This document shows, one piece after another, positions 35,361 through 64,000 of a stretch of 64,000 nucleotides of DNA. The translations under genes and the position numbers were made by a program. The notes under the pieces were generated by a model. It ran no database searches and was not told the origin of the DNA. It saw only the letters and a program-made list of their open reading frames with translations. This stretch comes from Natronobeatus ordinarius (GTDB lineage Archaea > Halobacteriota > Halobacteria > Halobacteriales > Natrialbaceae). Each line of letters begins with the position of its first letter. Positions within the stretch are counted from its first letter, which is position 1. The DNA is taken from the NCBI RefSeq assembly GCF_024362485.1, contig NZ_CP101456.1:1674001-1738000 (forward strand). The letters run 5' to 3'.

Positions 35361-35383
35361 CGGGCCGGGCGCGATTTGAACAC
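35361..35383 (-). repeat. Exact copy of the tRNA-Lys 3' end
   Basis: A 23-base exact copy of the last part of the tRNA-Lys gene (T-arm 3' side and acceptor strand plus one base) lies 107 bases downstream of the tRNA, in the same orientation. An inverted imperfect copy lies between them at 35410-35429. A small stem (GGAGC/GCTCC) sits at 35390-35402. Confidence 0.85.
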
Positions 35384-35467
35384 ACGGTCGGAGCAAAGCT
35401 CCTCCCTGCGTTCAAATCGTGCCTGCCGGTTCACTCACCGATTCGCTGCGCTCATCGGTTCGTTGCA

Positions 35468-35541
35468 CGGGCCGGGCGCGATTTGAACACGCGACCGTCT
35501 GATTAAGAGTCAGACGCTCTGCCTAACTGAGCTACCGGCCC
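35468..35541 (-). tRNA. tRNA-Lys (anticodon CTT)
   Basis: The reverse strand gives a full cloverleaf: acceptor GGGCCGG paired with CCGGCCC, D-arm around GTAGCTCAGTTAGGCAGAGC, anticodon stem TCTGA/TCAGA with loop CTCTTAA (anticodon CTT), and T-arm GTTCAAATC. No intron is seen. A TATA-like box lies about 28 bases upstream. The 3' end is duplicated downstream. Confidence 0.95.
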
Positions 35542-61424: not shown

Positions 61425-61499
61425 GGGTTGGTGATCTAGTCCGGTTATGATACCTCCTTCACACGGAGGAAGTCGGCAGTTCAAATCTGCCCCAACCCA
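61425..61499 (+). tRNA. tRNA-Val (anticodon CAC)
   Basis: A complete cloverleaf: acceptor GGGTTGG/CCAACCC, D-arm TGATCTAGTCCGGTTATGAT, anticodon stem CTCC/GGAG with loop TTCACAC (anticodon CAC), and T-arm GTTCAAATC. Discriminator A. No intron was found. Its 3' end recurs at least twice more downstream. Confidence 0.95.
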
Positions 61500-61759
61500 C
61501 TGATTTTGCGCCGAACAATTCCGTGAGGCGCAAATCCGTTACGTTGGGCAGATTTGATATTAGACGAGTCGCGCGCAGCGAAGCGAGCACGTCTCGGCGT
61601 CGTTCAAATCTGCCCCAACCTATTTCTGCCGCGAGCAACTCCGAGAGCAGCAAATCCGTTACGCTCGGGTAGTTTGAACCCTAGAAGTCACAACTGCGCA
61701 GCGAACGAAGTGAGCGTCCCGGAACGTCTTGCCGAGCTGTTTGTTCCGCCCCAACCCAC
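61479..61759 (+). repeat. Tandem diverged units carrying copies of the tRNA-Val 3' end
   Basis: The tRNA 3' sequence GTTCAAATCTGCCCCAACC recurs exactly at 61602-61620 and its last 12 bases (GCCCCAACCCAC) at 61748-61759, giving units of 123 and 136 bases. An inverted copy, GTTGGGCAGATTTGA, lies at 61543-61557, so unit 1 can fold into a long hairpin. Each unit also has related inner text (CAAATCCGTTACG). They look like footprints of repeated integration at the tRNA. Confidence 0.85.
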
Positions 61760-62361
61760 GAGATCCGGGCTCACGAATGGAAGAACGCGTGGCACGCCGG
61801 TACGACTGCTGGCGGGACGGTTCGGCTGCTGGACTGTCAGCGCCACCGAAATGCGCCTTGGACGACATGCTTGCCAATCGAATAAATTCGCTCGCCGAGT
61901 TCGTCGATCAGGGGGGTGCCGTTACACGCGTAGTGTTGTCGAAACCGGATCGTCACCAGTCACCATCGCATAGTCCTGGTGACACGTCGTCTCGGGTCGG
62001 CCGACGCCTGCCGAGCGACTCACTCCCGAGCCGTCGACCGACTGGATCCCGGCTCTGATCGCCGAGCGCTGCAGTTTGCAGATGACAATCTTAAAGTAAC
62101 GATACATCATCTGGTCCACTGTCGTGATCGACTGTGAGCCTCGGTCTTGCGGAAACACAGCGGATGCACTGAGTCGACAGGTCGGTACGTGGAGACGGTT
62201 CTCTCACACTTCCTTTCGCCAGCGCTGTACGAGATGGAACGTGTCGAGTCCGAACGTGTTCATAGTCGGCCGAACTGAACGGAACCAAGCCAACGTCAGT
62301 GACCGGGGAACCGCTCGGCGATCTCGTCGACGCGCGTCCCCGGGCGGACGACGGTGTCTCC
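61760..62361. other. Intergenic region after tRNA-Val repeats
   Basis: About 600 bases with no convincing gene. A perfect eight-base inverted repeat, GTCACCAG at 61952-61959 and CTGGTGAC at 61976-61983, is present. One AT-rich patch (CTTAAAG near 62091) could be a distant promoter. A 109-codon frame at 61729-62058 has no recognised features. Confidence 0.45.
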
Positions 62362-62967
62362 ATGGCGCGTGAAAAAAACAGACGGCGGACGAAAGTCGAA
62401 CGGGTCATTGAAGAGTACGGTCTCGACGGCTGGGGAGAACGCCTCGAGGCCGAGTGGACCGGCGACGGGACCGAACGGAAGAGCCTGCGTGACCTCGCAA
62501 CCGGGTTCAACGTCGCCGTGTTGCGGGCTGCGCTGTCGGCAGCCGGTGAGTCGACGGTCACGGCCGACGTAGAGAGTACGTACCACACGCTCACTGCCGA
62601 CGACGTGTCGCGCTCGGATACGATTCGGAAACGGCGCGAACTCGAGCGAGCCGGCATCGACGTGGACGACGTACTACGAAGTTTCGTCACCCATCAGGCC
62701 ATCCACACGTACCTCACGAACGTTCGCGAAGCCACACTCGAGCGAGACGAGGGTGACCGCGTCGAACGCAAGAAAGAGACCGTTCAGCGACTGATCAGCC
62801 GAACGCAGGTGGTGACCGACTCGACGATCGAGGAACTGGTGAACGCCGAGTTGTTGCGCGATCGACCTTACGAGGTGTTTGTCAACGTTCGTGTGGTCTG
62901 TAACGACTGCGGAACCGACTACGCCGTCGAGGAACTGATCGAACGAGGTGGCTGTGACTGTGGCTGA
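62362..62967 (+). CDS. rdfA: Rod-determining factor RdfA
   Basis: The 201-residue product (MAREKNRRRTKVERVIEEYG) matches the haloarchaeal RdfA family. The N-terminal basic segment and LDGWGERLEAEWTGDGTERK are followed by SLRDLATGFNVAVLRAALSA, a long helical region (KRRELERAGIDVDDVLRSFV) and a C-terminal zinc knuckle (CNDCGTDYAVEELIERGGCD). In Haloferax, RdfA is needed for rod shape and works with an SMC-like protein, Sph3. The ATG at 62362 is preferred over an upstream in-frame start. The SMC-like gene follows by 85 bases on the same strand. Confidence 0.88.
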   Translation: MAREKNRRRTKVERVIEEYGLDGWGERLEAEWTGDGTERKSLRDLATGFNVAVLRAALSAAGESTVTADVESTYHTLTADDVSRSDTIRKRRELERAGIDVDDVLRSFVTHQAIHTYLTNVREATLERDEGDRVERKKETVQRLISRTQVVTDSTIEELVNAELLRDRPYEVFVNVRVVCNDCGTDYAVEELIERGGCDCG

Positions 62968-63052
62968 CGGCGTGTCGTCGGTCGACTGTGGCTCACACGG
63001 TGGCAACTGCAAGTCGAGCGTATTCATAATCAACCCCCATGACCTCTAACAT

Positions 63053-64000
63053 ATGTCCGCAGCAGAGTCGATAGAAGATCAGATCGAGGTAGCAGTATCG
63101 AACGTCGGCGGGATCGACGCGACCGACGTCTCGTTACGGCCGGGAGTCAACGTCCTCACTGGCCGCAACGCGACGAATCGAACGTCGTTCCTGCAGGCGA
63201 TCATGGCCGCACTCGGCAGTGATCGCCCCTCGCTGAAAGGCGACGCCGACGAAGGGTTCGTCGAGCTGGCCTTCGGCGACGACACCTACACGCGCTCGCT
63301 CGAGCGCCAGAACGGCACGGTGAGCTTCGGCGGCGACCCGTACCTCACTGACGAGCAGGCCGAACTCGCGGATCTGTTCGCGTTCTTGCTCGAGTCCAAC
63401 GAGGCTCGCCGGGCCGTCGGCCGTGGTGACGACTTACGCGAGCTCATCATGCGCCCGATCGACACCGACGAGATCCAGGCGCAGATCCAGTTGCTCGAGG
63501 CCGAAAAGCGGGATCTCGACGACCGGATCGACGAACTCGAGCAGTTCGCCCGCGAGCTGCCCGGTCTCGAGGAGCAAAACCGTGCACTCGCCGACGAGAT
63601 CGAGGCACTCGAGGCCGATCTCGCCGACGTCGAGGCCGAACTCGAGACACTCGACGCCGACCTCGAGGAGAGTCAGAGCCAGAAAGACGAACTCGAGGAG
63701 ACGTTCTCCCGGCTGCGGGCCGCCAGAAAGGAACTCGAGACGATCGAGTACGACCTCGAAACCGAGCGTGAGAGCCGACGCGAACTCGAACGCGAACGCG
63801 AGCGGCTCGAAGACGAGTACGACGAGTTCACGAACGAAGAGTTCGAGTCCGCAGACCGGCTCGAAGGGCGCATCCAGGAGCTTCGTGAACGCAAACGGTC
63901 ACTCGAGACGACGGTGAGCGAACTCCAGGGCGTCATCCGTTTCAACGAGGAACGGCTCGAAGATGGCGGCATCGGTCTCGAGGCCGACGACGACGGGGAC
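63053..64000 (+). CDS. Archaea-specific SMC-related (Sph-type) protein, cut by window edge
   Basis: The frame starts at 63053 (MSAAESIEDQIEVAVSNVGG) and runs off the right edge after 316 codons. The ABC-type head holds GVNVLTGRNATNRTSFLQAI, in which the Walker A Lys is replaced by Arg (GRNATNRTS). A long coiled coil follows from about residue 135 (IQAQIQLLEAEKRDLDDRID and many Leu/Glu/Asp heptads). It belongs to the Sph-type SMC-like proteins of haloarchaea; its position after rdfA points to the Sph3 group used in cell-shape control. The C-terminal head lies outside the window. Confidence 0.9.
   Translation, partial: MSAAESIEDQIEVAVSNVGGIDATDVSLRPGVNVLTGRNATNRTSFLQAIMAALGSDRPSLKGDADEGFVELAFGDDTYTRSLERQNGTVSFGGDPYLTDEQAELADLFAFLLESNEARRAVGRGDDLRELIMRPIDTDEIQAQIQLLEAEKRDLDDRIDELEQFARELPGLEEQNRALADEIEALEADLADVEAELETLDADLEESQSQKDELEETFSRLRAARKELETIEYDLETERESRRELERERERLEDEYDEFTNEEFESADRLEGRIQELRERKRSLETTVSELQGVIRFNEERLEDGGIGLEADDDGD

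Follow-up and report, generated by a model that had tools for sequence, protein, structure and literature searches.

Copies of a tRNA-Val 3' end in a haloarchaeal genome belong to ~110-base hairpin units of mobile type that recur behind most of its tRNA genes

Why would a tRNA gene be followed by alternating direct and inverted copies of its own 3' end? The question is raised by a tRNA-Val-CAC gene in a 64-kb stretch of DNA (hereafter the window), which spans positions 1674001-1738000 of contig 1 of a 4.2-Mb haloarchaeal genome, and for which an initial annotation had ascribed the repeated tail copies to repeated integration and excision of elements using the tRNA as attachment site. Our analyses show that the tRNA-Val repeats are two copies of a mobile-type DNA unit of ~110 bases, built from hairpins and tRNA tail copies. 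The parts are listed below from the tRNA outward, followed by a second example from the window.

The tRNA-Val locus and the anatomy of its units

61425-61499, plus strand: tRNA-Val-CAC gene, the target (ARAGORN, 61425-61500; Rfam tRNA, 61425-61499, 60.5 bits)
61479-61499, plus strand: D, the last 21 nt of the tRNA-Val-CAC gene (G53 to N73), which form the duplicated segment GTTCAAATCTGCCCCAACCCA
61503-61535, plus strand: hairpin A of unit 1, stem TTTTGCGCC/GGCGCAAA, tandem-GA loop GAACAATTCCGTGA
61543-61557, minus strand: I of unit 1, inverted copy of the tRNA-Val 3' end, GTTGGGCAGATTTGA
61558-61601, plus strand: hairpin B of unit 1, type B1, AGACGAGTCGCGCGCAGCGAAGCGAGCACGTCTCGGCGTC, the unit end that abuts D'
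61602-61622, plus strand: D', copy of the tRNA-Val 3' end that closes unit 1, first 19 nt exact
61623-61654, plus strand: hairpin A of unit 2 (from the sequence and the consensus of units in the genome)
61664-61679, minus strand: I of unit 2, a weaker inverted copy, CTCGGGTAGTTTGAAC (from the sequence)
61680-61738, plus strand: hairpin B of unit 2, of the GTCACAACTG...CCCGGAACGTCTTG type (from the sequence; the type recurs in other units)
61739-61758, plus strand: D'', an older, worn copy of the tRNA-Val 3' end that closes unit 2
35361-35488, minus strand: second example, tRNA-Lys-CTT, with D (35488-35468), unit body and an exact D' (35381-35361)

The recurrence described in the initial annotation was reproduced at the coordinates given there, with 19 nt exact at a spacing of 123 and a single mismatch over the 21 nt of D and D'. 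The further tail copy is also present, in worn form, its last 13 nt matching D, and the inverted copy inside unit 1 is joined by the weaker one in unit 2. Hairpin B1 of unit 1 is of a type common to other tRNAs and genera. In an Rfam scan of the region only the tRNA itself was matched, and no known RNA family was found for the units.

When 41 units from this genome were aligned with units from tRNA-Val orthologues and named genomes, a single plan emerged, D - hairpin A - I - hairpin B - D'. The lengths of the unit bodies are narrowly distributed (quartiles 97-123 nt), few intermediates being seen, and their full range of ~66-195 nt leaves no coding room and no integrase of their own. Hairpin A commonly combines a variable stem with the loop GA[A/G]C..G[T/C]GA. 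The inverted segment I covers, at a minimum, the T loop and some of the T stem; such arms, with at most 3 mismatches per 12, were found in 145 of 162 units as compared with 6 of 162 shuffled bodies, and in 131 of the 162 the tRNA-specific part of I is a better fit to the unit's own tRNA than to other tRNAs on average. The inverted copies, which the initial annotation could not account for by simple duplication of an attachment site, thus turn out to be a constant and mostly tRNA-matched part of the unit. Hairpin B falls into discrete types centred on GCGAAGC-like turns, namely B1 (..AGTCGC..ACGTCT..), B2 (..GAGGTTCTGC..GCAGGTTCTC..) and B3 (..GGGAGTGGAGC..GACCGTG), and for 41 of the 42 B ends in the genome a match to the B of another tRNA scores above every shuffle. 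A literature search with the core motif GAGCGAAGCGAG gave nothing relevant.

Distribution and turnover behind tRNA genes

All 46 tRNA genes of the genome were located and oriented, and the DNA downstream of each was searched for the gene's own tail. One to three same-strand copies of the last 21 nt, mostly exact, follow 31 of the 46 genes, usually 80-180 nt downstream; they start sharply at G53, the last base of the T-stem 5' strand, and usually end at N73. Both tRNA-Ala-TGC genes are without a unit. When the tRNA-Val unit was compared with the genome by BLAST, nearly all significant matches fell directly behind other tRNA genes, the exceptions being one orphan unit, described below, and two short plasmid matches to the common motif AGCGAAGCGAGC, and the random positions expected of an ordinary dispersed repeat, which the initial annotation had named as the outcome that would overturn its reading, were not seen. 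Hairpins A and B and the recurrence of the unit at most tRNAs, including tRNA-Lys-CTT in the window, go beyond what that annotation had described. In a pooled set of 223 haloarchaeal tRNA loci, which the manner of fetching the loci enriched in units (the unbiased figure being 31 of 46, from this genome), the gene's own 18-nt tail (at most 2 mismatches, at most 260 nt downstream) was found at 149 loci, as compared with none of the 223 when another tRNA's tail was sought in the same intervals. First copies lie within 300 nt of the tRNA in 138 of 143 cases, with only 5 at 550-1250; large cassettes between tail copies were considered and rejected, almost none being found within 1.4 kb. A decayed orphan unit (G000:C1:3924644-3924830, L097), located between genes, lies beside a tRNA-Arg-CCT-like tail where no tRNA gene was recognised, and the tail copy of the orphan near 3,924,700 resembles that of tRNA-Val-TAC.

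The units come and go between close relatives. A single tRNA-Val locus, compared across nine species of a genus and with its upstream flank conserved in most, carries 0, 1 or 2 units with differing A and B types, and units are missing from many orthologous tRNAs even inside one genus. When the empty site of G005 is set against the filled site of G062, the sequence after D in the former aligns with the sequence after D' in the latter from the first base, so that the difference amounts to a 90-nt body plus a 21-nt duplication. Mismatches per 20 nt of tail copy rise with rank from the tRNA (1.06, 1.88 and 2.75; p=0.002), and units proximal to the tRNA therefore look youngest.

Beyond this genus, 42 of the 53 Halobacteria sampled contain a pattern taken from the I-B-D' part of the unit (GGATTTGAA-N30-60-GTTCAAATCC). 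None of the 242 genomes from the rest of the phylum has it, and the reversed pattern used as a control gave zero matches. In a scan of GTDB contigs the named genera with the pattern include Halorubrum, Haloarcula, Halobacterium, Halorhabdus, Natrialba and Natronococcus, and nearly all matches lie behind the matching tRNA. In this archaeon two thirds of the tRNA genes, and in other Halobacteria many, thus have layered mini-elements behind them. For such class-wide mini-arrays behind tRNA genes no description was found in the openly licensed literature searched.

A few observations fall outside this pattern. In three archaeal or unassigned contigs outside Halobacteria (L122, L157, L171) the tail of a tRNA-Ser or tRNA-Asp recurs downstream, with an inverted copy and a hairpin of unrelated sequence in between, and this architecture may extend past the haloarchaeal hairpin family. 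The plasmid search gave only two matches, a tRNA-Val unit on a Natronorubrum megaplasmid and one in a virus-like tRNA array. On a plasmid of Haloarcula halophila (L100; NZ_CP119561.1, 238158-242201 reversed), 20 predicted tRNA genes form a virus-like array, and one of them, a tRNA-Cys, is split at G53/T54 by a hairpin insert whose end is of type B1; this tRNA-Cys was rejected as proof of duplication-free insertion, since a shortened D and an I are present. IMG/VR matches to units were likewise set aside, some as chance matches, others as pieces of tRNA-Ser/Leu-like genes of bacteria or as tRNA-Met palindromes of bifidobacteria. The latter, in which a tRNA-Met 3' half is joined to its inverted copy, occur in bifidobacterial genomes and viral contigs and in one Verrucomicrobia contig (L137, L139, L141, L230, L234, L238, L240, L245, L247), and are possibly an attachment-site structure of prophages. 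Downstream of the tRNA-Val units, at 62299-64000 of the window, lie two open reading frames, of which we take the first to resemble a haloarchaeal RdfA-type protein and the second an SMC-like coiled-coil protein.

Full-size integrase elements and the origin of the units

The initial annotation had remarked that no integrase gene was in reach, and the 64-kb window indeed holds no PF00589 match; the integrase sits elsewhere in the genome. A 20.3-kb stretch at tRNA-Arg-TCT is a full-size integrative element (~20 kb, G000:C1:295958-316268; L383, L381), with D at 295937 and an exact D' at 316269. This tail copy, 20.3 kb from the tRNA, is preceded by an abutting hairpin and by a gene for a 330-amino-acid tyrosine integrase, the 5' end of which is 169 nt from the copy, and two mini-units follow beyond. 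The B2 hairpin occurs seven times in the genome, six times behind tRNAs and once at 316352, behind the displaced tRNA-Arg-TCT tail and beside the integrase gene. The integrase matches Phage_integrase, SAM-like domains and phrog_1, with Xer-type models below cut-offs, and relatives were found in 48 of 61 genomes. Among 70 integrase loci read, many have a same-orientation tRNA tail 50-600 nt from the integrase 5' end, and B-like hairpins are present at integrase-proximal ends, including a B1 hairpin adjacent to the integrase of L410. Under a division of these ends and a similarity test that were both devised after inspection of the data, 8 of 12 integrase-proximal ends with the G53 boundary resemble the B library of the units better than all 40 shuffles do, as compared with 0 of 9 ends with a longer attachment core (Fisher p=0.005).

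These results keep one half of the original interpretation. The copies do look like attachment-site duplications at a tRNA, in a genome that holds a family of tyrosine integrases, the elements of which have a similar hairpin at their end, placed at the same junction in the tRNA. On the other hand, the view that they are leftovers of ordinary integration and excision of large elements is not supported, given the tight size of the units, their fixed D-A-I-B-D' anatomy and their shared hairpins. The orthologous tRNA-Val-CAC locus of G067 offers a direct comparison, a provirus-like element of ~12.7 kb (G067:C1 ~2226500-2239300; L325, L330) lying there between the tRNA and an older, worn unit; because its attachment core begins in the anticodon stem and so belongs to the longer class, the units were rejected as scars of proviruses of this type. 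For annotation, tail copies behind tRNAs are not on their own evidence of a nearby provirus.

The units appear to be a stripped-down version of larger tRNA-inserting elements. On balance, we favour the view that they are miniature, non-autonomous integrative elements, which tyrosine integrases of the G53 type probably move in trans. In this scheme each unit would carry the last 20-21 nt of its target tRNA as D, followed by hairpin A, the partial inverted copy I and hairpin B, and insertion at the site that runs from the G53/T54 junction to N73 would let the D of the element restore the tRNA while the old 3' end is displaced downstream as D'. New units would land beside the tRNA, so that arrays lengthen outward from it and the copies farthest out decay. 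The recombination end would be hairpin B together with the G53 junction beside it, an end common to units and full-size haloarchaeal tyrosine integrase elements, and it is that integrase which would probably move the small units in trans, presumably by way of a circular form and in a process that may be ongoing. A more far-reaching proposal, which we put forward tentatively, is that Halobacteria as a class harbour a population of ~110-bp hairpin elements, each lineage of which is adapted to one tRNA. Tyrosine integrases would move these elements in trans by acting on folded single-stranded hairpin sites, and arrays that resemble those of integrons and grow from one end would thereby build up behind most tRNA genes.

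Several points weigh against movement by such integrases. Neither movement, nor an excised circle, nor a free unit was observed, and the viral contigs and phages searched hold no unit away from a tRNA. Besides the post hoc origin of the division of integrase ends, the hairpin of the Arg-TCT element itself, which by eye shares motifs with B2, does not stand out from shuffled sequence (4 of 40 shuffles reach its score). For most integrases of the family no D copy was detectable nearby, ~9 of 21 use a longer attachment core, and no integrase-bearing element could be tied to hairpin A. A move from one tRNA to another would also require D and I to be retargeted, which the scheme leaves unexplained; correction of the hairpin arms during replication is one possibility by which a unit lineage might switch tRNA.

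The main rival takes the units to be deletion scars, that is, full-size tRNA elements which lost their interior, kept their ends and piled up by accretion, as is known for decayed elements at bacterial tRNA genes (PMC5704250). It would fit the full-size integrase elements with B-like ends that adjoin mini-units in the same arrays, and the 113-amino-acid integrase fragment that lies between tail copies in the array of G061. However, random deletions would be expected to give broad lengths rather than bodies of 97-123 nt with few intermediates, and the constant A-I-B order, with the same types at many tRNAs and in many genera, would require identical deletion endpoints time and again, and we hold this origin to be unlikely.

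Copying driven by the hairpins themselves, without any recombinase, is a weaker candidate. Template switching or micro-homologous recombination at the T-loop sequence GTTCRAATC would yield alternating direct and inverted copies and I arms that mostly match the tRNA, with slippage between D and D' accounting for precise loss, and some arrays (Val-TAC, Leu-GAG) are indeed plain tandem duplications. Yet such copying leaves unexplained the fixed 21-nt segment with its sharp G53 boundary, the B types common to unlinked tRNAs and the identity of the junction with that of integrase elements, and it strikes us as improbable.

The pairing of the stems bears on a third explanation, in which the unit is a functional tRNA trailer or small RNA, co-transcribed with the tRNA and controlling how it matures; I would pair with the 3' half of the tRNA, and D' would undo this pairing. 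The region folds as RNA better than 100 shuffles (z -3.5), and variation in the hairpin stems is compensated. Nevertheless, the wobble bias that would be expected of RNA is missing, the stems of 65 A hairpins showing 484 Watson-Crick pairs, 7 G-T and 4 A-C, whereas the counts of G-T and A-C are 4 and 13 at the position closing the A loop, 66 and 54 between I and D', and 47 and 49 in B. In the stems of I, A and B, G-T thus roughly equals A-C or A-C is in excess, with no excess of G-U, a parity in varying stems which favours a function as DNA over one as RNA. Since, in addition, units are missing at many orthologous tRNAs, copies decay and the tRNA is complete without them, we give an RNA trailer very little credence.

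Were the units satellites of integrases, they would form a natural archive of the integrases that visited each tRNA and of the order of the visits, supply ready minimal attachment sites for testing how archaeal integrases choose their tRNA, and mark a lower size limit for a mobile element. If moved in trans through folded hairpins, they would rank with the smallest known site-specific integrative elements.

Comparison with known systems

Haloarchaea carry palindrome-associated transposable elements (PATEs), non-autonomous and linked to IS605-type transposons, which in Haloquadratum are, like the units with a hairpin near each end, short, non-coding and palindromic near their ends (PMC3119063). 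That the units are IS200/IS605-type mini-elements of this kind, or REP-type (repetitive extragenic palindromic) repeats, favouring tRNA 3' ends is scarcely credible, as PATEs are described without target duplication (PMC3119063) and are not restricted to tRNA genes, whereas the units duplicate 21 nt with a clean empty site, are restricted to tRNA 3' ends, and have a tyrosine integrase as the enzyme gene at matching ends.

A closer likeness is found in cis-mobilizable elements (CIMEs), which lost their integration and transfer genes, kept attL and attR and accrete at tRNA genes (PMC5704250). Like the units, CIMEs are without an integrase of their own, bounded by attachment sites, arranged in tandem behind a tRNA and located beside full-size elements of the same site, and direct repeats of the attachment type are present at the 3' ends of 31 of the 46 tRNAs. 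With regard to loss of an interior, B-like ends are common to units and integrase elements, but lengths are tight and hairpin A is not found on full-size elements. CIMEs are, moreover, described as decayed, whereas the units have no coding room, keep a fixed size and anatomy and occur behind two thirds of the tRNA genes.

Haloarchaeal proviruses have a tRNA tail at their end with an integrase gene nearby, and their reported attachment sites vary, with 13 bp in one case (PMC7911831); tRNA-Val-CAC and tRNA-Arg-TCT are among the archaeal targets used most (PMC8371274). The units share the G53 boundary and an abutting B-type hairpin with integrase elements of the G53 type, yet encode no integrase, and they differ from pleolipovirus-type proviruses and SNJ2-type integrase elements, which are kilobases long and encode the enzyme.

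Finally, the arrays invite comparison with integrons, if only as something that works alike. Integron attC sites are hairpins with internal mismatches and a G/TT-type junction, their arrays grow from one end, and many of their units are without a recombinase. The matches of the integrase are to general integrase families only, and hairpin B would be compatible with recombination of a folded, attC-like single strand. Unlike integrons, on the other hand, the units have no cassette genes and no attI, and the target is a tRNA gene.
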